Shown here: positions 22,866-42,425 of the stretch, in pieces
How positions within the stretch are numbered: position 1 is the first letter of the stretch
Layout of the letters: the number at the start of each line of letters is the position of its first letter
Assembly (NCBI RefSeq): GCF_937425535.1
Contig: NZ_OW485601.1
Span: 115,001 to 179,000, forward strand
Direction: 5' to 3'
Length of the DNA: 64,000 nucleotides
Source: Rhodovastum atsumiense
Lineage (GTDB): Bacteria > Pseudomonadota > Alphaproteobacteria > Acetobacterales > Acetobacteraceae
Notes under the pieces: model-generated
Databases searched by the model: none
Told to the model about the DNA's origin: nothing
What the model saw: the letters and a program-made list of their open reading frames with translations, nothing else
Program-made: the position numbers and the translations under genes

Positions 22866-22977
22866 AGCAGGGCACCGTACACCCCCCTCCCGAGTTGCGA
22901 CGCAACGAAGATGCGATGCATCCGTTGTCTCACCGCTGATCGAAACGGGGCCAAAGCATGCGTGACGGAGCGGGGGA

Positions 22978-25227
22978 ATGAACCGGGTGGACAGCGTGAA
23001 ACTGCCAGAGGCGCCCCAGGTGATGCGGCGCTCGCGGATCCGCGAGGGGCTGCCGAACCCGCGTGGCGTCACCTGGGACGGGCTCGGGGTGAACTTCGCC
23101 CTGTTCTCGGCCCATGCCACCAAGGTCGAGCTCTGCCTGTTCGATGATGCCGGCGAGACGGAAATCGAGCGCATCGAGCTGCCGGAGTTCACCGACGAGG
23201 TCTGGCACGGCTACCTGCCCGATGCCCGTCCGGGCACGGTCTACGGCTACCGCGTGCATGGCCCGTACGAACCGGACCAGGGGCATCGGTTCAATCCCAA
23301 CAAGCTCCTGCTCGATCCTTATGCCCGCGCCATCGTCGGCGACCTGAGCTGGGGGCCGGAAGTCTTCGGCTATCAGCTTGAAACCGGCGATGACCTGACC
23401 TTCGACGAACGCGACAGCGCGCCGCTGATGCCGAAATGCCAGGTTGTCGACCCGGCCTTCACCTGGGGCCGTGAACGCCGCCCCACCGTGCCGTGGGAAC
23501 GGACCATCATCTACGAAACGCACGTCAAGGGCTTCACCCAGTTGCATCCCGCGCTGCCCGAGGACATGCACGGCACCTATGCCGGCCTGGCCGCGCCGGA
23601 GGTGCTGGCCTATCTGCGCGAGCTTGGCGTCACATCTGTCGAGTTGCTGCCCATCCATACCTTCGTCAACGACGCGCTGCTGATCGACAAGGGCCTGACG
23701 AATTACTGGGGTTACAACACGATCGGCTTCTTCGCCCCGGTCCGACGCTATGCGCGCAGCCCGGTCACGGTGGCCGCCGAGTTCAAGGAAATGGTGGCGC
23801 GGCTGCACGACGCCGGGCTCGAGGTGATCCTGGACGTCGTCTACAACCACACCGCCGAAGGCAACGAGCGCGGCCCGACGCTGAGCTTCAAGGGGATCGA
23901 CAACGCCAGCTACTACCGGCTGCTGCCCGACCAGAAGCGCTACTACATCAACGAAACCGGCACCGGGAACACCTTCAATCTCTCGCACCCGCGCGTGCTG
24001 CAGCTGGTGACCGACAGCCTGCGCTACTGGGCCACCGAGATGCACGTGGACGGGTTCCGCTTCGACCTCGCCACCATTCTCGGCCGCGAGCCCTATGGTT
24101 TCGACGAGGGCGGCGGATTCCTCGATTCCTGCCGGCAGGATCCGGTGCTGTCCTCGGTCAAGCTGATCGCCGAGCCCTGGGACATCGGCCCGGGCGGGTA
24201 CCAGGTGGGTGGCTTCCCCCCGGGCTGGGCGGAATGGAACGACCGCTTCCGCGACACCGTGCGCGCCTTCTGGAAGGGCGACGCCGGCCAGGCGGCGGAA
24301 CTCGCATCCCGCCTGACCGCATCGGGGGACAAGTTCAACCGGCGCGGCCGCAAGCCCTGGGCGAGCGTGAACTTCGTCACCGCCCATGACGGCTTCACCC
24401 TCACCGACCTCGTCTCCTACAACGACAAGCACAACGAGGCGAACGGCGAGGACAACCGCGACGGCCATTCCGACAACCTGTCCTGGAACCACGGCGCGGA
24501 AGGGCCGACCGAGGATCCGGAGATCCAGGCGCTGCGGGAGCGGCAGAAGCGCAACATGCTGGCAACGCTGCTGCTTGCCCAGGGAACGCCGATGCTGCTC
24601 GCCGGCGATGAGTTCGGCCGCACCCAGCAGGGTAACAACAACACCTATTGCCAGGACAACGAGCTGAACTGGGTAAATTGGACCGGCATCGACGCGAAGG
24701 ACCGCGACCTCGCCGCCTTCGTGCGCAAGCTGATCGCCCTGCGCCAGGCTTTCCCGACCCTGCGCCGCGGCCGTTTCCTGACCGGCACCTACAACGACGC
24801 GGTCGGCGTCAAGGACATCACCTGGCTGACGCCCGCGGGAACCGAAATGCAGGCGGACCACTGGACCGACCCGAATGCGCGCTGCTTCGGCATGGTGCTG
24901 GATGGGCGGGCCCAGGCCACGGGGATCCGCCGCCCGGCCGCGGACGCGACGCTGCTGCAGGTGCTGAACGCGCATCACGACGTGGTCGCGTTCTCCCTGC
25001 CGGAGCCGCCGGCCGGGCAGCGCTGGCTGCTGCTGGTGGACACCAACCGGCCGGATATCGACGAACCCGAACCGTTCGAGTTCGGCCATCCCTACATGGT
25101 GACCGGCCGTTCCCTGCTGCTGTTCGTGCTGCGCCCGGAGCGGGGTGGCGGCGCGATCCTGGCCGCGGCCCGTTCGGCCCTGCTCGCCGGAACCGAACCC
25201 CCGATCCTGGCCGACCACCCGACGTAA
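22978..25227 (+). CDS. glgX: Glycogen debranching enzyme (GlgX/isoamylase family)
   Basis: This 749-aa GH13 enzyme hydrolyses alpha-1,6 branches in glycogen or limit dextrin. An N-terminal CBM48 domain (GVTWDGLGVNFALFSAHATKVELCLFDD) precedes the catalytic barrel. The triad is seen as Asp363 (HVDGFRFDLATILGRE), Glu399 (LIAEPWDIGPGGYQVG) and the HD of FVTAHDGFTLTDLVSYNDKHN; ILDVVYNHTAEGNERGP and GDEFGRTQQGNNNTYCQDN are also typical of GlgX/TreX. GGAG precedes the ATG at 22978. The released linear maltodextrins are substrates for TreY and the Mak-TreZ-MalQ fusion encoded 8 kb downstream, so it probably works in the same glycogen-to-trehalose route. A double-hairpin repeat starts 20 bases after the stop. 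Confidence 0.96.
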   Translation: MNRVDSVKLPEAPQVMRRSRIREGLPNPRGVTWDGLGVNFALFSAHATKVELCLFDDAGETEIERIELPEFTDEVWHGYLPDARPGTVYGYRVHGPYEPDQGHRFNPNKLLLDPYARAIVGDLSWGPEVFGYQLETGDDLTFDERDSAPLMPKCQVVDPAFTWGRERRPTVPWERTIIYETHVKGFTQLHPALPEDMHGTYAGLAAPEVLAYLRELGVTSVELLPIHTFVNDALLIDKGLTNYWGYNTIGFFAPVRRYARSPVTVAAEFKEMVARLHDAGLEVILDVVYNHTAEGNERGPTLSFKGIDNASYYRLLPDQKRYYINETGTGNTFNLSHPRVLQLVTDSLRYWATEMHVDGFRFDLATILGREPYGFDEGGGFLDSCRQDPVLSSVKLIAEPWDIGPGGYQVGGFPPGWAEWNDRFRDTVRAFWKGDAGQAAELASRLTASGDKFNRRGRKPWASVNFVTAHDGFTLTDLVSYNDKHNEANGEDNRDGHSDNLSWNHGAEGPTEDPEIQALRERQKRNMLATLLLAQGTPMLLAGDEFGRTQQGNNNTYCQDNELNWVNWTGIDAKDRDLAAFVRKLIALRQAFPTLRRGRFLTGTYNDAVGVKDITWLTPAGTEMQADHWTDPNARCFGMVLDGRAQATGIRRPAADATLLQVLNAHHDVVAFSLPEPPAGQRWLLLVDTNRPDIDEPEPFEFGHPYMVTGRSLLLFVLRPERGGGAILAAARSALLAGTEPPILADHPT

Positions 25228-27927: not shown

Positions 27928-30159
27928 TCAGGCTCTCGGCATCCGTGCCGGGCGATAGTAGCCGGGATAATACCGGTACATGTGGGCCAGGCCACCGGTG
28001 CTGAGCCGGGTGAAGCGGGAGAGATGCACCTGCGTCAGCACCGTGCCGAGCAGGCGTATATCCGCCCCCCGCAGCAGCCGCAGCGCATCCCGCGCCGCCG
28101 CCCGCGGTGTCCGCTCCCAGCGCACGACGAAAAGGGTGGCATCGACGATGCGCGCGAGAAGTTGCGCGTCGGCGGCCGCCAGCACCGGCGGGGCATCGAC
28201 GATGACCAGATCATAGCGCGTGCGTGCCATATCCAGGATGCCGGCCAGGCGACGGGAGGTCAGCAATTCCTGGGGATCATGCTCGGGAACACCGGTCGGG
28301 ATGACATCCAGGCCCTTGGTCATGCGACGCACGACAGGGTTGCCGTCGCTCAGGCTGTTGGTGCCGAGCACCTGCGCCAGCCCCGGCTCCGGGTCGATGC
28401 CGAACGCGGCGGCCACGCTGGGATTGCGCAGGTCGCAGTCGATCACGCAGACACGCCAGCCGGCCTGCGCGGCATTGCGCGCGAGGCTGGTGGCCAGGAC
28501 CGTCTTGCCTTCCTGCGGCAAGGCGGAGGTGATCATGACGACACGCGGCCGGGCCTGCGCGTCGATCACCTGCAACGTGCCGCGCAGGCGGCTGAGCGCC
28601 GCCGCGAAATCCGCGGCCCCCCGGCCGTACGGGGCATCGCCGCGCGCCTTCGCGCCCACCGACGGCACCAGCCCGAGCGAGGCCAGGCCAAGCTCCGCCT
28701 CCAGGGCCTCGGGCGTGGACACACCCTCTCCCATGCGATCGAACATACAGGCCAGGCCAATCCCCAGGACCAGGGAAAAGCCGAAGCTGACCGCAAGCAA
28801 CCTGCCGGCGCGCGGGGAATACGGCTCCGAGGGAATCGTCGCCGCCGAGACGAGTTCCGCGTCCGGTTCCTGGATCCCGGCCACATTGGCGAGTTGCGTC
28901 GCGCGGGTGAGGAAACTCTCGTAGATGGCGCGGTTGGTATTGGCCTCCGAGATCAGGCTCTGCAGGCGCACCTCGGCCTTGTTCTCGGTGGTGACGGCCG
29001 AGCGCAGGCTTTCGAGCCGGGCCCGCAAGGCGGATTCCTGCACGGCTGCCGCGGCAACCTCGTTGGCGAGGCCACTGGTGGCATTGGTCATCTCTTCCTG
29101 CAACTTCTGCTGCAGGCCGCGGCGCTGCGAGCGCAACGCCATCAGCTCGGGCGCGCGCTCGCCAAGCGAGACCGACAGCTCCGCGTCACGCCGCGCCAGA
29201 TTGGCTTCCTGCTCGCGCAATCTCTGTACGAGGGGGGAGTTCAGCACTTCCGGCAGGGCGTCATAGCCGCGTTGCGCGCGCAGGGCGGACCTGGCCTGCG
29301 ATAGCTGGGCTTCCTTGCGCGCCTTTTCGCCCGAGACGATCACGAGCTGGCGTGCTGCCTCGTCGAGCTGCTGGCGGTTGATGGTGGGCGAGGTCGGCGC
29401 ATTGCGGGTGTTCAGCACCTCGGCCAGCCCGTTCTGCAGCCGGTAATTCTCCACCGCCTGCTCGGCCGCGCGTGTCTTGGCCCCGAGTTCGCCGAGACGT
29501 TCGCTGAACCAGGTATGCGCCCGTTCCACCGCGGCGAATTTCTGGTAGCGCTTGAATTCGAGGTATTGCTGGGCGAACTGGTTGGCGATGTCAGCACTCA
29601 GGTCCGGCGAGACGGTCTCCGCCCAGATGGTGATGACGTTGGAGCGTGGCTCGTTCTGCTGCCCCACCATGGCGAGCAGCGCGGTGGTCGCGTTGTCGAT
29701 GCGCTCCTGCGGCGTCAGCGGGCGCGAGTCCAGCAAGGGAACGCCCAGCAGGGTGCCGGCCATGTGCAGCACCCTGGTGACGACACCGTCATGCGGCGCG
29801 AAGGCCGGGTGGTCGACCAGGGCAAGCCGCTCGACCACGCGCCGGGCCAGGGCGGGCGAGCGCAGCAGGTCGATCTGTGTCCGGATCAGGTTGGCATTGC
29901 CGGGATCGGCGGCGATCGCCTGCAGGTCGCTCACCTGGGTCTGCCGCGGCTCGACCAGCACGGCGGCTTCCGCCCGGTAGGTCCGCGGCGCCTTGGCAAG
30001 ATAGAGCCCCATGCCGCCCAGGCCGAGCGTCATGACCAGCAGCACGAGCAGGAAGCGCCGGCGCAAAATGGTGCCAAGCCGCCGCAGCGGCACGCCGATC
30101 GGCTCAAGCGTGTGGACGGGATCCGGTGCGGGGCCTGTCAGAGCGGGATTCGCCGTCAT
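27928..30159 (-). CDS. Polysaccharide co-polymerase with bacterial tyrosine kinase domain (Wzc-like)
   Basis: This 743-aa inner-membrane protein combines a Wzz chain-length domain with a BY-kinase. TM1 is FLLVLLVMTLGLGGMGLYLA (about 35-54). A long periplasmic coiled coil follows (ERAHTWFSERLGELGAKTRAAEQAVENYRLQ, EANLARRDAELSVSLGERAPELMALRSQ), with GNVR-type residues before TM2 (LLAVSFGFSLVLGIGLACMF). The kinase has ITSALPQEGKTVLATSLA (Walker A), VIDCDLRNPS (Walker A') and LVIVDAPPVLAAADAQLL (Walker B). The last residues, MYRYYPGYYRPARM, are the Tyr cluster used for autophosphorylation in this family. GAGGAG precedes the ATG. No wzx, wzy, export or glycosyltransferase gene is near, so its polysaccharide locus must be elsewhere. 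Confidence 0.9.
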   Translation of the reverse strand: MTANPALTGPAPDPVHTLEPIGVPLRRLGTILRRRFLLVLLVMTLGLGGMGLYLAKAPRTYRAEAAVLVEPRQTQVSDLQAIAADPGNANLIRTQIDLLRSPALARRVVERLALVDHPAFAPHDGVVTRVLHMAGTLLGVPLLDSRPLTPQERIDNATTALLAMVGQQNEPRSNVITIWAETVSPDLSADIANQFAQQYLEFKRYQKFAAVERAHTWFSERLGELGAKTRAAEQAVENYRLQNGLAEVLNTRNAPTSPTINRQQLDEAARQLVIVSGEKARKEAQLSQARSALRAQRGYDALPEVLNSPLVQRLREQEANLARRDAELSVSLGERAPELMALRSQRRGLQQKLQEEMTNATSGLANEVAAAAVQESALRARLESLRSAVTTENKAEVRLQSLISEANTNRAIYESFLTRATQLANVAGIQEPDAELVSAATIPSEPYSPRAGRLLAVSFGFSLVLGIGLACMFDRMGEGVSTPEALEAELGLASLGLVPSVGAKARGDAPYGRGAADFAAALSRLRGTLQVIDAQARPRVVMITSALPQEGKTVLATSLARNAAQAGWRVCVIDCDLRNPSVAAAFGIDPEPGLAQVLGTNSLSDGNPVVRRMTKGLDVIPTGVPEHDPQELLTSRRLAGILDMARTRYDLVIVDAPPVLAAADAQLLARIVDATLFVVRWERTPRAAARDALRLLRGADIRLLGTVLTQVHLSRFTRLSTGGLAHMYRYYPGYYRPARMPRA

Positions 30160-32573: not shown

Positions 32574-33734
32574 TCACGCCGGCGAGGTCGGCCCGGCATC
32601 CGGCGCCCGCCACGGGTTGCGCAGCCCCGGCGGGGTGCCCCCCGGCCCACCCCCCGGACCGGCATTGCGCGCCGCCTGCACCATCATCATCTCGCCGACA
32701 TTCTCCGGCGTGATCAGGCCGACCAGCCGCCCACCGCCATCCTCCACCCCCACCGCCGGCAATTGCCGCTCCTGCAGCAACCGCAACGCATCGGCCAGGC
32801 TGGTGCGGTGATTCACCATCGGGATGTCACGCACCATCACCTCGATCACCGGCGTGTCCGGGCCACCCTCACGCAACGCGCGGATCATGGCGTCGCGCGT
32901 CAGCACCCCACGCAACCGCCCGCCCCCGTCCACCACCGGGAATTCGTGCTGCGTGGTGCGGATCAGACATTGCACCGCATCCTCGACCCGGCTCATCGGC
33001 GAAAGACTCTCGAACTGCGTCACCGCGGCATCAGCGGCAATGATCCCCCGCGACGCCTCGCGGATCTGCACCGCATGCGCCTCCGACGCTGCCCCGAGCC
33101 AGACGAACAAGCCGATGAACAACAGGATCGGATTGCCGAACAACCCAAGCACCCCCAGCGCGAAGGCAAGCCCCTGGCCGATCGAGGCGGCGATCTGGGT
33201 CGCCCGCCCATAGCCGAGGCGCCACGCCAGCAAGGCCCGCAACACCCGCCCGCCATCCATCGGGAACGCCGGAACCAGATTGAACAGCACCAAAAACAGA
33301 TTGGCTACCGCAAGCCGGGCCAGCAACCCGGCATCCTGCGCATGCATCTGCAGGCTTTGCTCGGGCAAGGTCCCGCCCAGCACCAGGAACAGGACAACAG
33401 CGATCACCAGATTCACCGCCGGCCCCGCCAGCGCCACCACCAGTTCCTCAACCGGGCGTTCGGGAATGCGCTCCAACCGGGCAACGCCGCCGATCGGCAG
33501 CAACGTGATGTCAGGGGTCTGCACACCATAGCGCCTTGCGGCCAGCACGTGACCGAATTCGTGCAGCACCACACTCAGGAACAGCAGCAAGGTAAAGGCG
33601 ACGCCCTGCACCAAGGCGGACATTCCACCCTGCGCATAGTGCGCGGCAGCAATCCAGGCGAGAAACAACAGAAACGTCACATGCAGGCGAATCACCGTGC
33701 CCTTCAAAGTGACGATGGGAAACGACCAGGTCAT
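32574..33734 (-). CDS. Site-2 protease family zinc metallopeptidase with CBS domains
   Basis: This 386-aa integral membrane protein is of the M50 type. The zinc site is VVLHEFGHVLAARRYG (HExxH) in a membrane helix, with the partner motif NLVPAFPMDGGRVLRALLAW giving the third ligand Asp. Several other hydrophobic helices are present (LFLAWIAAAHYA, VNLVIAVVLFLVLGG). The C-terminal third holds a CBS pair (DAVQCLIRTTQHEFPVVDGGGRLRGVLTRDAMIRAL and SLADALRLLQERQLPAVGVEDGGGRLVGLITPENV), which in this group may sense adenine nucleotides. The start is the ATG at 33734, because GGGAG lies 6 bases before it and touches the ATG at 33740. The substrate protein is unknown; no sigma or anti-sigma gene is adjacent. 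Confidence 0.92.
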   Translation of the reverse strand: MTWSFPIVTLKGTVIRLHVTFLLFLAWIAAAHYAQGGMSALVQGVAFTLLLFLSVVLHEFGHVLAARRYGVQTPDITLLPIGGVARLERIPERPVEELVVALAGPAVNLVIAVVLFLVLGGTLPEQSLQMHAQDAGLLARLAVANLFLVLFNLVPAFPMDGGRVLRALLAWRLGYGRATQIAASIGQGLAFALGVLGLFGNPILLFIGLFVWLGAASEAHAVQIREASRGIIAADAAVTQFESLSPMSRVEDAVQCLIRTTQHEFPVVDGGGRLRGVLTRDAMIRALREGGPDTPVIEVMVRDIPMVNHRTSLADALRLLQERQLPAVGVEDGGGRLVGLITPENVGEMMMVQAARNAGPGGGPGGTPPGLRNPWRAPDAGPTSPA

Positions 33735-33780
33735 ATACATCTCCCGGATCACGCCAGCCCGGGGCGTTGCCCCGAACCCA

Positions 33781-33837
33781 CCAGGAGGCTTTGCCTCCTG
33801 GACCTCCACCAAGGGCCACAGGCCCTTGGATCCCATT
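33781..33837 (-). repeat. Double-hairpin intergenic repeat, copy B (behind treY)
   Basis: On the minus strand it begins AATGGGATCCAAGGGCC and forms CCAAGGGCC/GGCCCTTGG and CCAGGAGGC/GCCTCCTGG. It starts 6 bases after the treY stop and has the same orientation relative to the upstream gene as copy A behind glgX. The second stem has changed in both arms, so base pairing rather than exact sequence is conserved. Confidence 0.75.
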
Positions 33838-33842
33838 TGGGG

Positions 33843-36635
33843 TCAGGTGCCCTCAAGCACCAGAACGGCAACCGGCAAATCGCCCAAAACCACCTCGATG
33901 CCCACCCCATTGTCGCTGGGCACGATCTCACGGCCACTGAACAGGTCACACCAGCGCTGCCCCTCGATCCGGGGCCAGGGAAGCACCGTGCCGGCCCAGT
34001 CCGGGTCGGCTGCCAGCCGCACCGGGAAACGCGCCGCCACCACCACCGCCGCATCTTCCCCATGACGCCGCGCAAAGGCACAGACCTGCTCAGCCCTCGC
34101 CCCCACCGCCACCAGCGGCTCATACGCCCCTTCGGCGAACAAGCCCGGATGCGCGCGGCGATACGCCAGCAACAGGCTGGTCACCCCCAGCTTGATGCGG
34201 CCGTCCCGCCACTCCGCCAGCATCTCCCGCAACGCCGCCCGCCGGTCACGCTCCAGCGCCACCGTCACCTCATCGAGCAGCCACATCCGGCGCTCATAGT
34301 CCACCGGACGCCGGTTGTCCGGATCCACCAGGCTGAGATCCCACACCTCGGCCCCCTGGTAGATGTCCGGCATGCCAGGAACCGTCAGCTTCAGGACGGT
34401 CTGCACCAGACTGTTGTGCACGCCAAGCCGCGCCACCCGCTCCTGGAACGGCAGGAAAGCCCCCAGGAACGCATCGGACGCGGAAACATCCAGGGCATCG
34501 CGCACGAAACCGAGCATCGCTTCCTCGTAAGCGGCATCCGGCGCCGCCCAGGTGGAATGCAGCTTCGCCTCGCGCAGGGACTTGATGATCGCCCCTTCCA
34601 TGCGCCCGACAAAGGCACCGACCTGCCCGGCATCCAGGCCACCGACGCCGGTGAGTTCGGCCGGCCAGGCACCAAGCAGCAACTGGTAGAACAGGTATTC
34701 GTCGTTGCGGTCGGGCGGCGCGGTGCCCTCCACGTCGCCGCGACGGGCCCGCAGGATGCGGCTCCAGGCCTGCACCTGCCGCGCCCATTCCTCCGGCAAC
34801 TCCGACAACACCGCCAGCCGCGCCCTGGTGTCCTCGCCACGCTTGGTGTCATGCGTCGACGTGTTCAGCATCGCGTGCGGCCAACGCGCGGCACGTTGCG
34901 CATTCGACTTGTGGAAGGATGCCAGCGAGACGCCGAAATGGTCGGGATGCCCGCCCACCTCGTTCAGCGCCACGAACCGGTTGTAGCGATAGAAGGCCGT
35001 GTCCTCGAGACCCTTCGCCATCACCGGGCCGCTGTATTGCTGCACCCGCATGGCGAAGCGCACCACCGTGTGCCGGCTGAAGCCGCTGCGCGGCTCTGCC
35101 ACCAGATCCGTCGTCAACAAACGGTGCAGGAAATCGAAGACACTCGGATCGACATCCGTCTCGTTGCGCCGCGCCTGCGCCACCGCCCAATCGATGTAGC
35201 GGCGATCCTCCTCGACCGGCACGGCGCCGTCCACATAGGTGCGGTAGACCGGAAAACAGGCGACGATCTCCTTCAGCGCCCGCTGCAGGATGTTGCGCGT
35301 GAAATCGGCGGTACGCGGATTCTGCCGGGCGATGCGCGCCGCGTCACGGGCCAGCACGTTCAGCTCGCTCGCCATCTCGTTCAGCATGATGCGGATCTTG
35401 CAGTCGCGCACGATCTCGCCAAAGGGACGCGCATCCTCGGCAAAGCCGGCGTAGACCTTGGAAAGCCCCGCTTCGCCCGCCGGATCCACCAGCACCCCGA
35501 GCACGAGGTTGGCGAATTCGTAGCCGGTGGTGCCCTCGACCGGCCACTCCTCGCGCAGCGCCTCGTGCCGGGCCAGGATTTTCTCAACGACCAGATAGAA
35601 CGGCCGGGGCGCCTGCTCGCGCAGCCGCAGCAGGTAGCCCTTGGGATCGAACAGCCCGTCCACGTGGTCGATGCGCAGCCCGTCCAGCACGCCCTCGCGC
35701 AGCAGCGAGAAAACCAGGGCATGCGCATGGTCGAACAGCTCCGGCAGTTCCATGCGCAGCCCGGCGAGCTCGTTGATGTTGAAGAAGCGCCGGTAGTTGA
35801 TGTCATCCGCGGCGACGCGGAAATGCGCGGCGCGCCAGTGCTGCTCCTGGATCAGCGCATCCAGCCCGCGCCAGGTCTCCAGCCGGCCGGGCTCGCCGTT
35901 GAGCCGCGCGACCGCCGCTCCCACCGCCTCCCGCACATCCGCCCGCTCCCGCGCCAGCGCGGCCAGCACGGCCTGCAGGTCCCTGGCACGCTGCACCACG
36001 CGCGGCCGCCAGTTCGGCAGGCCGGAAAACGCGTCGCCCAACCGTTCCAGCTCCGGGTGTGCATCACCGAGCACGTGCTGGTACTGCAGCGGACAGATCG
36101 GCAGCTTGTGCGTGTCATAGGCCCATACCGCGAAGCTGCCGGTCTCCGGCTCGAAGCGCAGGCTGAGCTGGCCGGATTCCAGAACGGCCCCGTACTGGTC
36201 ACCCAGGAAAGGCACCAGCAGCTTGCCCAGCAGATAGCGCCGGTCCGGCTCCCAGTCGATGTCGAACCAGCCCGCGTAGTCGGAATCCGGTCCCCATTCC
36301 AGTACGTCGAGCCACCACAGGCTGTCGGAACCGCCGACGCCCATGTGGTTCGGCACGAAGTCCAGCACCTGCCCCAGCCCGTTCGCCCGGAACGCCGCGA
36401 CCATGTCGCGGAACGCCGCCTCGTCGCCCAGTTCCGGGTTGAACCGGCCGTGATCGACGATGTCGTAGCCGTGGCTGCTGCCCGGCCGCGCCTTCAGATA
36501 GGGCGAGGCATAGACATGGCTGACGCCGAGCCGTGCCAGGTAGGGCGCGAGCGCCGCCGCCTCGGCGAAGCCGAACTTCGCGTGGAACTGCAGGCGGTAG
36601 GTCGCACGCGGCACCGGCACACGGGTTTCACTCAT
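33843..36635 (-). CDS. treY: Malto-oligosyltrehalose synthase (TreY)
   Basis: This 930-aa GH13 enzyme rearranges the reducing-end alpha-1,4 bond of maltodextrins to alpha,alpha-1,1, giving maltooligosyl trehalose. Family marks are ATYRLQFHAKFGFAEAAALAPYLARLG at the start, SHGYDIVDHGRFNPELG, VLDFVPNHMGVG, the nucleophile region LDGLRIDHVDGLFDPKGYL, and LVVEKILARHEALREEWPVEGTTGYEF with the acid/base Glu. NTSTHDTKRGEDTRARL and VPGMPDIYQGAEVWDLSLVDPDNRRPVDYERR close the barrel. Its ATG overlaps the stop of the upstream fusion gene by 8 bases, so the two are translationally coupled and TreY product passes to the TreZ domain of the fusion. Confidence 0.97.
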   Translation of the reverse strand: MSETRVPVPRATYRLQFHAKFGFAEAAALAPYLARLGVSHVYASPYLKARPGSSHGYDIVDHGRFNPELGDEAAFRDMVAAFRANGLGQVLDFVPNHMGVGGSDSLWWLDVLEWGPDSDYAGWFDIDWEPDRRYLLGKLLVPFLGDQYGAVLESGQLSLRFEPETGSFAVWAYDTHKLPICPLQYQHVLGDAHPELERLGDAFSGLPNWRPRVVQRARDLQAVLAALARERADVREAVGAAVARLNGEPGRLETWRGLDALIQEQHWRAAHFRVAADDINYRRFFNINELAGLRMELPELFDHAHALVFSLLREGVLDGLRIDHVDGLFDPKGYLLRLREQAPRPFYLVVEKILARHEALREEWPVEGTTGYEFANLVLGVLVDPAGEAGLSKVYAGFAEDARPFGEIVRDCKIRIMLNEMASELNVLARDAARIARQNPRTADFTRNILQRALKEIVACFPVYRTYVDGAVPVEEDRRYIDWAVAQARRNETDVDPSVFDFLHRLLTTDLVAEPRSGFSRHTVVRFAMRVQQYSGPVMAKGLEDTAFYRYNRFVALNEVGGHPDHFGVSLASFHKSNAQRAARWPHAMLNTSTHDTKRGEDTRARLAVLSELPEEWARQVQAWSRILRARRGDVEGTAPPDRNDEYLFYQLLLGAWPAELTGVGGLDAGQVGAFVGRMEGAIIKSLREAKLHSTWAAPDAAYEEAMLGFVRDALDVSASDAFLGAFLPFQERVARLGVHNSLVQTVLKLTVPGMPDIYQGAEVWDLSLVDPDNRRPVDYERRMWLLDEVTVALERDRRAALREMLAEWRDGRIKLGVTSLLLAYRRAHPGLFAEGAYEPLVAVGARAEQVCAFARRHGEDAAVVVAARFPVRLAADPDWAGTVLPWPRIEGQRWCDLFSGREIVPSDNGVGIEVVLGDLPVAVLVLEGT

Positions 36636-39600
36636 GGTCGCTGCTGTCCTCGGGCTGCGGGGTGCCGCGCTCGGCGCGGAAGATCTCGGCGATGTCGATG
36701 AAGCGTGGCCGCACCGCGAGCTCCTCCAGCGTCATCGACAGGCGGCGCCGCCAGTTCGGATGTTCCTCCGAGGTGGTCGGGACATTCACCGGATCAGCCT
36801 CGTCGGTCAGGTCGTCGATCTGCGCCATCGCCAGCACGGCGGGGCTGCGGGCGAGGAAAGCATGCACCGCCCGCGCCAGCTTCGGGATGTCGGGTTCGCC
36901 CTCGTCCGGCAACAGGCCCTCGGTGCGCAGTGCCTGCAGCAACTGCGTCCGGTCACGCGCGCGGGCCTCGCGCTGGCGCGATGCGTCCGCCGGATCGGGG
37001 AACAGGCCGAGCTGCTCCCTGATCTCGATGTCGCGCTCCGTCCACCAGCCGCGCAGGGTCGGCAGGTCATGGCTGCCGATCACCGCCAGGGCCAGCCCCG
37101 GATAGGCCGCGGGCGGGAAGAAGGCACCGGTCGTGAAGTCCTGCTCGAAATACAGCACCCGGTAGGAAAGGATATTCGCCGCCGCCATGTGCTCGCGGAA
37201 CCCCTCAGGCACCGTGCCGAGGTCCTCGCCGACGACGAGGCAACGCTGGCGATGGCTCTCCAGCGCCAGGATGCCGACCAGATCCTGCAGCGGATACTGC
37301 ACATAGGCGCCGTCCGGTGGCTTGCGGCCCCGTGGCACCCAATAGAGGTGCTGCAGCCCCATGACGTGATCGATGCGCAACCCACCGGCGTGGCGCATAT
37401 TGGCGCGGATCAGTTCGATGAAGCTGCGATAGCCTTCTTCCCGCAATGCCCGGGGATTGAAGGGCGGCACCCCCCAGTCCTGGCCGGCCGGGTTGAGGAT
37501 GTCGGGCGGCGCGCCGACCTGGGCGCCGGAGACCACGGCCGCGGCATTGACCCAGGTCTCGGCACCGGCACGATCGGCCCCCACCGCGAGGTCGCGGTAG
37601 AGCCCCACCGCCATGCCGCGCGCGGACGCCGTCGCCGCGGCGGCGGCAAGCTGCGTGTCGGCCAGCCATTGCAGCCACGCAAGAAAATCCAGCCGCTCAC
37701 GGTTCGCTTCGGCAAAGCGTGCCACCGTGGGGGAATCCGGGTCACGGTACTCCTCCGGCCAGCAATGCCAGTCGGCCAGGGCGGGATCGCGGGCGGCGAA
37801 ATACTCGCGCAGGGCCAGGAACAGGCAGTTGCGCTCCAGCACCGTGCCACGCTCGCGCCGGAACGCCGTGAAGCCCTCCCAGCGGGCGGGGTCGGCGGCC
37901 GTTCTGCAGGCATGGAACAACTGCTCCAGCACCGAGAACTTGAGGGCAGTGACCTCGGCATAATCCACGAGGGGCCGCGCGCTGCACGCCGCCACGCGGG
38001 CGCGGAACGCCTCCGAGGTGATCAGCTCCCGGGTCTGCGGGCAGTCCAGCAGTTCGGGCACCGCTAGCACGTCGATGTTGAGCACGTTCAGCAGCAGGCG
38101 GCTGGCCGGCGAATAGGGGCTGGCATGCTCGGGGTCGTCGTGGAACAGGGCGTGCAGCGGGTTGAGGCCGATCACGTCGGCCCCGCGCGCGGCGGTCAGT
38201 TCCACCAAACTGCGCAGATCGCCGAAATCACCGATGCCCCAGTCGGTGGCGGAGCGCAGCAGATAAAGCTGCGCGGCGATGCCCCAGAGCCGGCGCCCCT
38301 CGGCCAGCCCCGGCGGCAGCCAGCAACGTCCGGGGGTCACCACCAGTGTCGTGGCCGCCTGCCCTGGCTGGAAGGAAAACCGGTGATAGCCCCATGGCAG
38401 ATCGTCGGGCAGCACCAGCCGGCGGCGCTGCAGCGCCTGGCCGTCGACATGGCAGGACGCCACCAGGTCGAGCCGGTCGAACGCCACCTGCGCCACGATC
38501 TCGCTGCCGTCTTCCAGGGCCAGGTGCCAGATGATCTGGCCGGTATCGGGGGGCAGGACGATCTCCACCACCAGCGGCCCGGCAGTGACGTCCAGAACCA
38601 CCACGGGGGGCAACGGGCGCTGCCAGTCGGCCCGCTCCAAGGCCTCAAGGGTCGCGCGGACCTGTGCCTCGTCGTCGGCCGCAACCCCCATCGCGGCGAG
38701 CAGGCTGCGCTTGGTTTGGGCGCTGGCCCGCACCGTTTTCCCCCGGGCGTCACGGAAGACGGGTTCGATGCCCATCCGCCCGGCCAGCTCGTCCAGGGTG
38801 GCGCTGCCGGATTCCGCCGCCGCCTCGATCGCCCACCGGACCGCCCACGGGCCGAAACGCCCGTCCGCCTCCGCGCCGGTCTCGCCTTCCTGCCACAGCA
38901 CCTTTCCGGCAGCGACGGGAAATCCCTCGACCGGCGTTGGGGAGAGATTGGCCGCCAGCACCAGCGCGCCGCCTGCCCCCGTCCCGGACTCACCAAGGTT
39001 CCAGCGCACCACCACCGCGCCGTCGCCGATGATCTCGTAACGCCCACCGGCGCGGATGCCGGTCAGAAGCGGCACGATCTCGGCATGGCGAAGGGCCAGG
39101 ACACGCCGGTACCAATCGAGCCATCCCGCATGCGGCGCGCGCGCCAGATCCTCCCAGCGCAGCTTCGCCGCGGCGAAGGTGGCCTCCGCCGTGGGATCGG
39201 GGATGCGCTCGCGCGTCGCCGGGTCCTGGAATTCGGGGAAGCGGGCGAATTCCTCGCGCCGGCCCCGGCGCACCGCCTCGGCCAGATCGCCGCTGAAATC
39301 ACAGAAAAACGGGAAAGGCTGCGCGGCGGCCCATTCCTCGCCCATGAACAGCATCGGCACCTGCGGCAGCAGCAGATAGACCGATGCCACCGCCCGCACC
39401 GCAGCTTCCGGGGCGAAGGCGGTCAGGCGGTCGCCGAAGGCGCGGTTGCCGACCTGGTCGTGGTTCTGGATGAAGGCGATGAAGGCGCCGGGCGGCAGCG
39501 CCGCGCTCGGCTCGCCGCGGGCATGGCCGCGATAGGGCATGACCTCGCCCTGGAAGGCGAAGCCCTCGGCCAGGGCACGACCGAGCCTGTCGGTATGGCC

Positions 39601-42219
39601 TTTGTAGTCGGCGTAGTAGCCCTTGGCCTCGCCGCTCGCCGCCACGTGCAGCACGTGGTGGGCATCGTCGTTCCACTGCGCGGTATACCAGCGCGGCCTG
39701 CCGTCCGCGTCGCGGACCAGGCGGGAAGCCTGGTTCTCCTCGTTCTCCAGCACGAGATGGACGGGCCGGTCCGGCACGGCTTCGCGCACGCGCCTGGCCA
39801 GATCCTCCAGCAGATGAAGCGGGCTGTCGTCGAGGATGGCGTGCACCGCATCCAGCCGCAGGCCGTCGAGGTGAAACTCCTCGATCCAGTACAGGGCGTT
39901 GTGGATGAAGAAGTCGCGGACCGGGCTGGCCTCGGCACCGTCGGTGTTGATGGCGGCACCCCAGGGCGTCTTGTGGCGGTCGGTGAAGGCCTGCGGCGCG
40001 ATAGCGTGGAGATAGGCGCCCTCCGGTCCGAAATGGTTATAGACCACGTCGAGCAGCACCATCAGCCCGCGCGCATGGGCGGCCTCTACCAGGGCCTTCA
40101 GGTCCTCGGGGCGGCCATAGCTGCCGTCGGGCGCATAGGGCAGCACGCCGTCATAGCCCCAGTTGCGCAGGCCGGGGAAATCGCCGACCGGCATGATCTC
40201 GATCGCGGTGACGCCCAGCGCCACCAGATGATCCAGCCGGTCGATGGCGGCGCGGAAGGTGCCGCCCGGCGTGAAGGCGCCGACATGCAGCTCGTAGACC
40301 ACCGCCTCTTCCCAGGGACGGCCCTTCCAGGCGGCGTCGCCCCAGACATGGGCGGCCGGATCGATCACCTCGCTCGGCCCGTGCACATCGTTGGGCTGGT
40401 GGCGCGAGGCCGGGTCGGGCACGTGCAGCCCGTCCGGCAGCACGTAGCGGTAGCGCGTGCCGGCACGCGCCCGGTCGGTGACCAGCTCGTGCCAGCCACC
40501 GTCCTGTGCCTGCAAGGCCAACGTCTCCGCCGCGCCGTCGAGGGCAAGCCGGATCTGTTTGTGGGCGGGGGCCCAGAGGCGGAAGCGCACCCGCCCATCG
40601 GCCTGCAGCTCGGCACCGAAGGGCATGGCATGCCGGCGCGTCACCGGCGCGGCATCCAGCAGCGCCAGCACGCCGCGCAACGGGATGGCGACCCAGTCCG
40701 GTCGGTTGGCGCGCTCGTAGGCGATCTCGTAGAGCGCCCTCTCCAGCATGAAGAAATGCACCAGCCGTGCGGCCGCCGGTAGGTCAGCCGGGCAGCCCGG
40801 CGTTCCCTGCGCGGCCGCAAGATAAGCATCGAAGAAGGCGCGCGATGCCTCCGCCTCCCAGGCGTCCAGGCGGCGCAGCGCCGCCGTGCGTTGCGCCTCC
40901 GGCAGGTCGGCGGGCAAGGCGCGGCCGGCGGCCGCGGCGGCATAGGCGACAGAGCGCAGCAGCCCCGCCACGTCGCGCAACGGCGCGTGATGGGCGCGGC
41001 GCTCGGCAAGCGGGCGCATGGGCTCGCCCTCGAAATCGATGATGATCGCGTCCTCCCCGGCGACCAGCACCTGACCCAGATGGTAGTCGCCATGGTGGCG
41101 CGTGCGGGCGAAGGCAGGGGCATCGCGCAGCACCGTCTCGAGTTGCGCGGCCAGTTCGTCCCGGCGCCCCAGCAGGGCGGCGGCCAGGTCCCGCGCCGGC
41201 GGCGCCAGTTGCCGGGCATCGGCCGCGAGCCCGTCGAGGACGCGTCGGGCCAGCGCCTGCGCCGCCTCGGTCCAGCCCTGCCGTTCCGCCGGCCCGACCG
41301 CATGCGGCCGGAAGGCCGGATCCTGGCTGTCGATGCCGAAGGCGCGATGCATCTCGGCGGTGCGCTGACCCAGGCGGCGCAGCCAGGCGGTCGTTTCCGC
41401 CAGCATCTGCTCCGAGGCAGGTTCGTCGGCCGCGACGGCGCGCCCCAGTCGCCCCAGCACCCAGTTCCAGCCATCGCCCTGGTTCGGCACGAAAGCCTGC
41501 AGCACCGACAGCGTGATGGACCCGGTGGCGCCCGGAAGGTCCAGTTCGGCCCAGCCGAGCAAAGCCGGCGTCGCCGTGAAGCCGGCCTCGCCGGTGAGGA
41601 AGCGACCAACCTCCAGCTCGGGATGGATGCCCTGCTCCAGCTTGCGGATCACCTTCAGGATCGCCCCCTCGCCGATCCGGATCGAGGTGTTGGACTGCTC
41701 GGCATGGCTGCGGCGCACCGCCCAATTGCCGCCCGGCTCGAGCCCGGCCTGCGCCAGGCGATCGGTGTGGCCCGTACGCAGCCGGTCCCGCGCCGTGCCC
41801 TTCCCCCGCACCAGCGCGCCGATCCAGGCGCGCACGAAGTCATCGGTGGAAAAGGCTTCCACCAGCACCCCGGCCGGGGCGGCCCCGCCCGGCGCCGAGG
41901 CGGGAGCGGGAGCAATCACCTGGGCCGGATCCGTCCCCCCCCCGGCCGGAACCAGCGCGAGCGGCACGAAGAGCAGCAACGGCGCCTGCCCCGGCGGGGT
42001 CACTCGCCAGATGGCGAGCGCGGCAGGCTGGCGGGGGCTCGGAAAGGCAACCAGGGTCGCGAGCGTCACCGCCGGCCGGCCGGCGTCCTTGGCGGGGTAC
42101 CAGCGTTGCCGCAGCAGGAAATCCGGCAATGCGGCCTCGGCCACCGCCTCCAGCCCGGACGGCCAGGATTCGGCGGGAGTGGCATTCTTGTCGGTTGAAG
42201 AGCGTGAGGATGACGACAC
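36628..42219 (-). CDS. Maltokinase-TreZ-MalQ triple fusion enzyme
   Basis: This protein of about 1863 aa joins three activities of alpha-glucan and trehalose metabolism. Part 1 (about 20-510) is a maltokinase: LRQRWYPAKD, RRSHAEQSNTSIRIGEGAILKVIRKLEQG, HHGDYHLGQVL (Asp378) and IIIDFEGEP. Part 2 (about 532-1110) is malto-oligosyltrehalose trehalohydrolase: CBM48-like start MPFGAELQADGRVRFRLWAP, VYELHVGAFTPGGTF, LDGLRLDAVHAI (Asp790), LVLENEENQASR, FIQNHDQVGNRAFGDR. Part 3 (about 1120-1863) is 4-alpha-glucanotransferase with its N-terminal beta domain: DWGIGDFGDL, GGLRIDHVMGLQHLYWVPRG (Asp1617), VVGEDLGTVPEGF, IGSHDLPTLRGWW. The GTG at 42219 is preferred as start because it leaves room for a promoter; an ATG at 42387 would leave only 38 bases to the divergent gene. 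No frameshift is seen. No GlgE or TreS to use or supply the maltokinase substrate is in this window. Confidence 0.93.
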   Translation of the reverse strand: MSSSSRSSTDKNATPAESWPSGLEAVAEAALPDFLLRQRWYPAKDAGRPAVTLATLVAFPSPRQPAALAIWRVTPPGQAPLLLFVPLALVPAGGGTDPAQVIAPAPASAPGGAAPAGVLVEAFSTDDFVRAWIGALVRGKGTARDRLRTGHTDRLAQAGLEPGGNWAVRRSHAEQSNTSIRIGEGAILKVIRKLEQGIHPELEVGRFLTGEAGFTATPALLGWAELDLPGATGSITLSVLQAFVPNQGDGWNWVLGRLGRAVAADEPASEQMLAETTAWLRRLGQRTAEMHRAFGIDSQDPAFRPHAVGPAERQGWTEAAQALARRVLDGLAADARQLAPPARDLAAALLGRRDELAAQLETVLRDAPAFARTRHHGDYHLGQVLVAGEDAIIIDFEGEPMRPLAERRAHHAPLRDVAGLLRSVAYAAAAAGRALPADLPEAQRTAALRRLDAWEAEASRAFFDAYLAAAQGTPGCPADLPAAARLVHFFMLERALYEIAYERANRPDWVAIPLRGVLALLDAAPVTRRHAMPFGAELQADGRVRFRLWAPAHKQIRLALDGAAETLALQAQDGGWHELVTDRARAGTRYRYVLPDGLHVPDPASRHQPNDVHGPSEVIDPAAHVWGDAAWKGRPWEEAVVYELHVGAFTPGGTFRAAIDRLDHLVALGVTAIEIMPVGDFPGLRNWGYDGVLPYAPDGSYGRPEDLKALVEAAHARGLMVLLDVVYNHFGPEGAYLHAIAPQAFTDRHKTPWGAAINTDGAEASPVRDFFIHNALYWIEEFHLDGLRLDAVHAILDDSPLHLLEDLARRVREAVPDRPVHLVLENEENQASRLVRDADGRPRWYTAQWNDDAHHVLHVAASGEAKGYYADYKGHTDRLGRALAEGFAFQGEVMPYRGHARGEPSAALPPGAFIAFIQNHDQVGNRAFGDRLTAFAPEAAVRAVASVYLLLPQVPMLFMGEEWAAAQPFPFFCDFSGDLAEAVRRGRREEFARFPEFQDPATRERIPDPTAEATFAAAKLRWEDLARAPHAGWLDWYRRVLALRHAEIVPLLTGIRAGGRYEIIGDGAVVVRWNLGESGTGAGGALVLAANLSPTPVEGFPVAAGKVLWQEGETGAEADGRFGPWAVRWAIEAAAESGSATLDELAGRMGIEPVFRDARGKTVRASAQTKRSLLAAMGVAADDEAQVRATLEALERADWQRPLPPVVVLDVTAGPLVVEIVLPPDTGQIIWHLALEDGSEIVAQVAFDRLDLVASCHVDGQALQRRRLVLPDDLPWGYHRFSFQPGQAATTLVVTPGRCWLPPGLAEGRRLWGIAAQLYLLRSATDWGIGDFGDLRSLVELTAARGADVIGLNPLHALFHDDPEHASPYSPASRLLLNVLNIDVLAVPELLDCPQTRELITSEAFRARVAACSARPLVDYAEVTALKFSVLEQLFHACRTAADPARWEGFTAFRRERGTVLERNCLFLALREYFAARDPALADWHCWPEEYRDPDSPTVARFAEANRERLDFLAWLQWLADTQLAAAAATASARGMAVGLYRDLAVGADRAGAETWVNAAAVVSGAQVGAPPDILNPAGQDWGVPPFNPRALREEGYRSFIELIRANMRHAGGLRIDHVMGLQHLYWVPRGRKPPDGAYVQYPLQDLVGILALESHRQRCLVVGEDLGTVPEGFREHMAAANILSYRVLYFEQDFTTGAFFPPAAYPGLALAVIGSHDLPTLRGWWTERDIEIREQLGLFPDPADASRQREARARDRTQLLQALRTEGLLPDEGEPDIPKLARAVHAFLARSPAVLAMAQIDDLTDEADPVNVPTTSEEHPNWRRRLSMTLEELAVRPRFIDIAEIFRAERGTPQPEDSSDHE

Positions 42220-42425
42220 GGCGCACCACCCGAGTTGGTTCGGACCAGACGAAACCGCGAGCCCCCCCCGACGTTCCGGGGACCTGCCAGAATTCTTGCG
42301 TTCGCCATGGATTCCAGGGACCTCCGCCCCGTTGCGCGAGAGCCCGGCATCGACGGCGGGCGCAAACTGGTGGAACGTGGCGGCCATCGGATCCGCAACT
42401 GTGACACCAGGAAGGAACGTCCCGC

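Follow-up and report, generated by a model that had tools for sequence, protein, structure and literature searches.

A maltokinase-TreZ-MalQ fusion protein from Rhodovastum atsumiense as a possible branch point between trehalose and GlgE glucan

Introduction

What would a bacterium gain by carrying a maltokinase (Mak), a malto-oligosyltrehalose trehalohydrolase (TreZ) and a 4-alpha-glucanotransferase (MalQ) on one polypeptide, and into which product would such a chain direct its substrate? This question is raised by a gene of Rhodovastum atsumiense located in a stretch of 64,000 nucleotides (contig NZ_OW485601.1, positions 115,001 to 179,000), which is referred to as the window at its full length and within which positions are counted from its first letter. 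An original prediction, made from this sequence alone, held that the three enzymes are joined in one intact frame, that their order was not known to have been described, and that the chain serves to turn glycogen fully into trehalose while Mak traps leftover maltose as maltose-1-phosphate. Maltose-1-phosphate is the donor substrate of GlgE.

A three-domain chain in one reading frame

The fusion gene lies on the minus strand at 36628..42219, in a frame that is unbroken from an ATG at 42387 to the stop codon at 36628-36630 (1919 codons, the numbering used for residues below). Each domain exceeds its NCBIfam cut-off: the Mak domain (40648..42153, minus strand, residues 79-580) scores 408.1 bits against 375.05 for the maltokinase model TIGR02457, TreZ (38818..40632, minus strand, residues 586-1190; GH13 with CBM48 and DUF3459) 703.2 bits against 538.8 for TIGR02402, and MalQ (36658..38805, minus strand, residues 1195-1910; GH77) 465 bits against 206 for TIGR00217, with PF02446 and PF21226 (MalQ_N) also present. 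A three-domain Mak-TreZ-MalQ chain is thereby confirmed.

Translation is likely to start at GTG 42219, yielding 1863 aa, to judge from related sequences. A GTG occurs 38-41 codons ahead of an RWY motif in the window fusion and in four of the five fusions compared with it (L020, L023, L026 and L104), the fifth (L105) having an ATG near that position without the GTG; in Azospirillum ramasamyi (L104) this GTG is the annotated start and is preceded by GGGGAGGAG. The upstream ATG 42387 is disfavoured because the frame of Belnapia (L023) opens just 16 codons ahead of the corresponding GTG. The predicted intact triple fusion of 1863 aa is thus borne out, with its domains above their cut-offs and its start backed by relatives.

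The malto-oligosyltrehalose synthase gene treY (33843..36635, minus strand, 930 aa) forms a separate frame beside the fusion, and its ATG overlaps the fusion stop by 8 nt (ATGAGTGA). A frame for a GlgX/TreX-type debranching enzyme lies at 22966..25224 on the plus strand (TIGR02100, 1078 bits), and this enzyme is likely to supply linear maltodextrin. Other genes around the locus encode an M50-family peptidase with two CBS matches (32574-33836), immediately 3' of treY and in the same orientation, an S-formylglutathione hydrolase (TIGR02821; 42426-43277) diverging from the fusion gene, and a Wzc-like exopolysaccharide transport/tyrosine autokinase (27928-30159, minus strand), whose TIGR01005 match is below its cut-off.

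Distribution and evolutionary history

Database searches recovered the same three-domain order elsewhere, commonly in genomes around Azospirillum brasilense, and hence the fusion is not unique to this genome. It occurs, in the same order, in Belnapia moabensis, the nearest named relative, in genome G027, in Indioceanicola profundi and in Azospirillum. Among the best 100 relatives listed, two (G000 and G027) hold the full fusion, and in G032 Mak and TreZ are fused while malQ is separate, treZ and malQ overlapping by 4 nt (GTGA). A scan of genome contigs gave at least 592 confirmed matches, and five of the 80 loci retained from them hold the fusion (Belnapia moabensis and four Azospirillum species). 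Twelve of 1331 matching plasmid records (one from Indioceanicola and 11 from Azospirillum) cover at least 80% of the fusion in one place, in one piece and at 53-61% identity; a search of viral contigs for relatives of the fusion found none. Around A. brasilense (G250), 38 of 61 genomes match a query spanning the Mak-TreZ junction, which lies within a single frame of 1783-2048 aa in 29 of the 61; the TreZ-MalQ junction, run on 32 of the 38 junction matches, falls in a frame of equal length in the same 29. A. brasilense Sp7 is among the carriers. In even samples of 190 genomes of the class and 299 of the phylum, an unbroken match to the whole junction query was obtained in the R. atsumiense genome only (at 1e-40 and 1e-60), and outside the surroundings of A. 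brasilense the fusion is rare.

Several genomes show other arrangements of these domains, among them G277, G286 and G263, which make up the rest of the 32 genomes around A. brasilense run with both junctions. In G277, TreZ-MalQ forms a 1348-aa frame and Mak lies on another contig. In G286 (L132 4960-8832, with L133), Mak is fused straight to MalQ in a 1291-aa frame followed by treY, with the LEKSLYE..Y, HGD, DFEGEP, LRIDH, GEDLGT and HDL motifs retained, and TreZ and another MalQ lie beside GlgX on a different contig. In G263 (L134 4748-10365) the TreZ portion of the triple fusion is divided between two overlapping frames, which suggests a frameshift or a sequencing error, and the junction match of G565 contains two internal stops. 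Three further candidates were rejected as fusions: in G180 (match 61-331) the reading frames merely overlap, in G429 no Mak adjoins the TreZ, and in G341 (L127 4414-9486) a 1691-aa TreZ-MalQ frame runs into an IS1634 transposase, so that the MalQ joined to TreZ there, which is without its N-terminal part, is probably an interrupted gene. Downstream of the fusion of Azospirillum oleiclasticum (L024 15571-25562) no TreY was found by BLAST, unlike at L025, L026, L027, L104 and L106.

Phylogenetic trees place the fused Mak domains in a single clade with 100/100 support, apart from 25 TreS-linked Mak rows. The MalQ domains of the fusions fall in a 13-row clade (SH-aLRT 99) that includes four unfused MalQ, that of G032 among them; the TreZ tree requires three changes; and the TreY proteins adjoining fusions belong to a 16-row clade shared with unfused operons. 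The TreZ, MalQ and TreY trees omit 37 locus ids (duplicates, near-duplicates mainly from Rhizobium and Bradyrhizobium, and short partial loci) as well as domains below a length threshold, four of the 37 loci being restored in the Mak tree. When the regions 5' of unfused TreZ genes at 20 loci were searched for Mak remnants, which would point to the break-up of an old fusion, the matches obtained were all at chance level, with a best E of 0.064, and a junction match of 43 residues at L030 has E 0.15. The data are compatible both with one old fusion followed by later splits and with up to three formations.

Given the GTGA overlap of treZ and malQ in G032, the fusion could plausibly have arisen when an overlap of this kind shifted into a single frame, and the arrangement in G032 also speaks for the first of the alternative explanations, namely operon collapse. 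According to this explanation, the fusion carries no metabolic significance: overlapping neighbours became fused in frame and stayed fused since they were always made together, their domains acting on a free cytoplasmic pool just as separate enzymes do. It would also account for other joined enzymes of the same pathway, as MalQ-TreY (L028, L062, L117), TreZ-TreY (L126), GlgX-MalQ (L017), TreS-Mak (L016) and Mak-MalQ (L132), and for the unfused TreZ, MalQ and TreY sets that lie near fusions in the trees and also occur in the A. brasilense relatives G270 and G289, where the three are separate. However, the presence of both junctions in one frame in 29 of the 61 genomes around A. brasilense, together with the single Mak clade and the recovery of the fusion in one piece at 53-61% identity, indicates an arrangement that is old and has been kept, and operon collapse is considered a real but minor possibility.

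A proposed branch point between trehalose and GlgE glucan

The reading preferred here, on which we are evenly divided, is that the chain may act as a three-activity branch point between trehalose and GlgE glucan, with the activity of each domain and the direction of flux predicted from sequence and genomic context. GlgX and GlgP would release linear maltodextrins from glycogen, which the separate TreY, made from the overlapping gene, would cap. The TreZ domain would then release trehalose and so shorten the chain by two glucoses, and the MalQ domain would disproportionate the short leftovers into longer chains, glucose and maltose. The longer chains would go back into TreY and TreZ, and the maltose would be converted by the Mak domain, with ATP, into maltose-1-phosphate, which GlgE, encoded elsewhere in the genome, would add back onto alpha-glucan. 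The fused protein would in this way yield maltose-1-phosphate without TreS, and the flux would be divided between free trehalose and the polymer built by GlgE. A kinetic advantage of being fused would be an expectation of the model, and channelling is not claimed; according to passages of PMC11046441, channelling appears to be ruled out by the structure of the Mycobacterium smegmatis TreS-Mak complex.

The branch-point reading is favoured because the fusion joins with trehalose release two activities, MalQ and Mak, whose pairing has a precedent. Passages of PMC8084333 describe the formation of maltose-1-phosphate from maltohexaose and ATP by Pseudomonas aeruginosa MalQ and TreS/Pep2, bypassing TreY, TreZ and TreS, and propose that, with glucose in plentiful supply, this route directs carbon into GlgE glucan. 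It is also favoured because G286 keeps Mak-MalQ; the persistence of this pair without TreZ, seen in one genome, may help the idea of a transfer from MalQ to Mak a little. In somewhat more tentative terms, the fusion could represent a dedicated, TreS-independent entry to GlgE, in which Mak catches the maltose made by MalQ on the chain that also releases trehalose, one protein thereby setting the ratio of trehalose to glucan in Azospirillum and its relatives.

In this regard, candidate partner enzymes are encoded in the R. atsumiense genome. One cluster (L016) holds a GlgE-domain protein (PF11896), TreS-Mak, GlgB, a second TreZ and OtsA, and another (L017) holds GlgP, GlgB, GlgC, GlgA and a GlgX-MalQ fusion; no NCBIfam model matched the PF11896 protein at 1e-60. 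PF11896, a marker domain of GlgE, was present in all eight genomes tested that carry the Mak-TreZ or the triple fusion (G000, G027, G032 and G248-G252), and so was a second Mak match, which is a TreS-Mak by its domains in G000, G027 and G032 and, to judge by frame length, probably also in the others; this second Mak counts against the branch-point reading. PF11896 also occurs in six of ten genomes whose TreZ is an unfused relative of this one (Fisher p 0.09 against eight of eight), so the association between GlgE and the fusion is only suggestive and the presence of PF11896 is non-specific.

The context also bears on the proposal that the chain is a machine for recycling glycogen completely into trehalose, in which Mak merely removes leftover maltose. 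The presence of TreZ and MalQ in one chain, the overlapping treY and a glgX in the window agree with it, and the recycling of short dextrins by TreZ and MalQ beside treY is a sensible part of the original prediction. Its claim of a conversion fully into trehalose fits poorly, because the Mak arm, by producing the GlgE donor, would return carbon to alpha-glucan. Mak moreover uses ATP, a GlgE domain is found in every fusion genome tested, MalQ alone should be sufficient for complete conversion, and G286 retains Mak-MalQ without TreZ in the chain, all of which make complete conversion into trehalose an improbable purpose of the fusion.

Catalytic residues, structure and selection

The branch-point reading depends on three working domains. 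The residues on which the original prediction relied, Asp378, Asp790 and Asp1617, are indeed kept and correspond in the 1919-aa numbering to D434 (the HGD base of Mak), D846 (the TreZ nucleophile) and D1673 (the MalQ nucleophile). D846, E881 and D977 of TreZ and D1673, E1721 and D1774 of MalQ, which we take to be the catalytic D/E/D sets, are invariant in all nine fusion rows of the trees. In the Mak domain of the window, S232, K245, D434, Q439, D451, Y553 and Y557 are retained (the P-loop serine, the lysine, the HGD base, the magnesium-binding glutamine and aspartate, and the pocket tyrosine pair). For 23 key maltokinase positions drawn from passages of PMC4306142, 21 are invariant in every one of the 14 fused rows, which represent 11 distinct sequences; the two that vary are Arg267, which is variable in TreS-Mak too, and Lys413 of the Mycobacterium vanbaalenii enzyme, a maltose-pocket residue replaced by Arg550 in the window protein only, lysine being retained in the remaining 10 distinct sequences.

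The kinase activity of the window protein is in doubt because Arg550 replaces a residue that is essential in M. vanbaalenii, where K413A practically abolished activity (passages of PMC4306142). The change from lysine to arginine is conservative, and it would weaken the claim of a working kinase in the window protein, not the family assignment by score. It nevertheless gives some substance to a further alternative, that the Mak-like domain does not work as a maltokinase here and is another sugar kinase or a structural or regulatory module, as does the finding that Mak is the fastest-changing domain in three Acetobacteraceae pairs. Against this explanation, the TIGR02457 cut-off is passed, the glucosamine kinase model NF041273, whose cut-off is 550 bits, reaches 95, and the other key residues, both maltose-pocket tyrosines included, are kept except for Arg267; a non-maltokinase function is therefore held to be quite unlikely.

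Residues 70-1190 were modelled with AlphaFold at a mean pLDDT of 88.4 and a pTM of 0.67, at which the orientation of the domains is not fixed. The best structural match of this model is 3m07 (0.95), deposited as a putative alpha amylase, and it scores a TMt of 0.87 against Deinococcus radiodurans TreZ (2bhz) and 0.82 against the maltokinase 4u94. Solved TreZ and MalQ structures align across nearly the whole of their respective domains, whereas solved maltokinases cover roughly two thirds of the Mak domain, the N-terminal cap region being outside the alignment. Across all three domains, dN/dS ranges from 0.08 to 0.22 in four Azospirillum pairs and from 0.17 to 0.33 in the three Acetobacteraceae pairs, values consistent with purifying selection on every domain, and by these features each of the domains looks active. 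Finally, chance can be dismissed, and so can a sequencing or assembly artefact, for which nothing in the window speaks and of which the split TreZ of G263 is the one reminder, since the identical single frame recurs in independent assemblies, complete plasmid records included.

Comparison with known systems

The claim that this triple order is undescribed agrees with a search of the open-access literature, in which no paper describing a Mak-TreZ-MalQ fusion was found. The passages available from PMC11046441, PMC2885305, PMC8084333, PMC9041414 and PMC4306142 mention TreS-Mak as the only maltokinase fusion, and the NCBIfam model NF011293 links maltokinase to GlgB. Of three plasmid records of the fusion examined, one is annotated, and there the Azospirillum ramasamyi protein WP_111068116.1, the same triple fusion followed by treY, bears the name treZ alone. 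This public protein thus carries two unlisted predicted activities, and for these plant-associated bacteria both gene-presence tables and the interpretation of knock-outs with respect to trehalose may be misleading as a result. Tying maltokinase to TreZ and MalQ predicts that maltose-1-phosphate can be formed directly from maltodextrin, and A. brasilense Sp7, a tractable plant-growth-promoting carrier, makes the fusion testable.

Several systems resemble the fusion in part. TreS-Mak (TreS/Pep2; TIGR02456 and TIGR02457) likewise combines a maltokinase and a GH13 enzyme of trehalose metabolism in one chain that feeds GlgE; the window fusion is without a TreS domain, its Mak lies N-terminal to TreZ and MalQ, and this Mak belongs to a separate clade (100/100). 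The only GH13 module of the window protein matches TreZ and Mak is its first domain, and it is accordingly not a TreS-Mak. The MalQ-TreY fusion PRK14507 (NF011077) shares the malQ-treY gene order, and its MalQ half is the highest-scoring NCBIfam hit to the window protein, at 854 bits; in contrast to PRK14507, treY is here a separate overlapping gene, TreZ and Mak are fused ahead of MalQ, and the 2148-bit cut-off is missed. Other joined enzymes seen in the survey include a TreZ-TreY fusion in G377, from the same phylum (L126 5833-10752; a 1640-aa frame with both parts over their cut-offs, TIGR02402 and TIGR02401), and a frame of Mucilaginibacter aquatilis (L102 13528-17760) in which TreY comes first and then a domain that resembles MalQ weakly, at 24% identity, the reverse of the PRK14507 order. 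The glgA-treZ-malQ-treY-glgX and glgE-treS/pep2-glgB operons of P. aeruginosa PAO1 encode the same activities as the window, but according to passages of PMC8084333 these reside there in separate proteins, with the maltokinase fused to TreS in the other operon. In conclusion, several other fusions of this pathway exist, from which the present one is distinguished by the joining of Mak to TreZ and MalQ.
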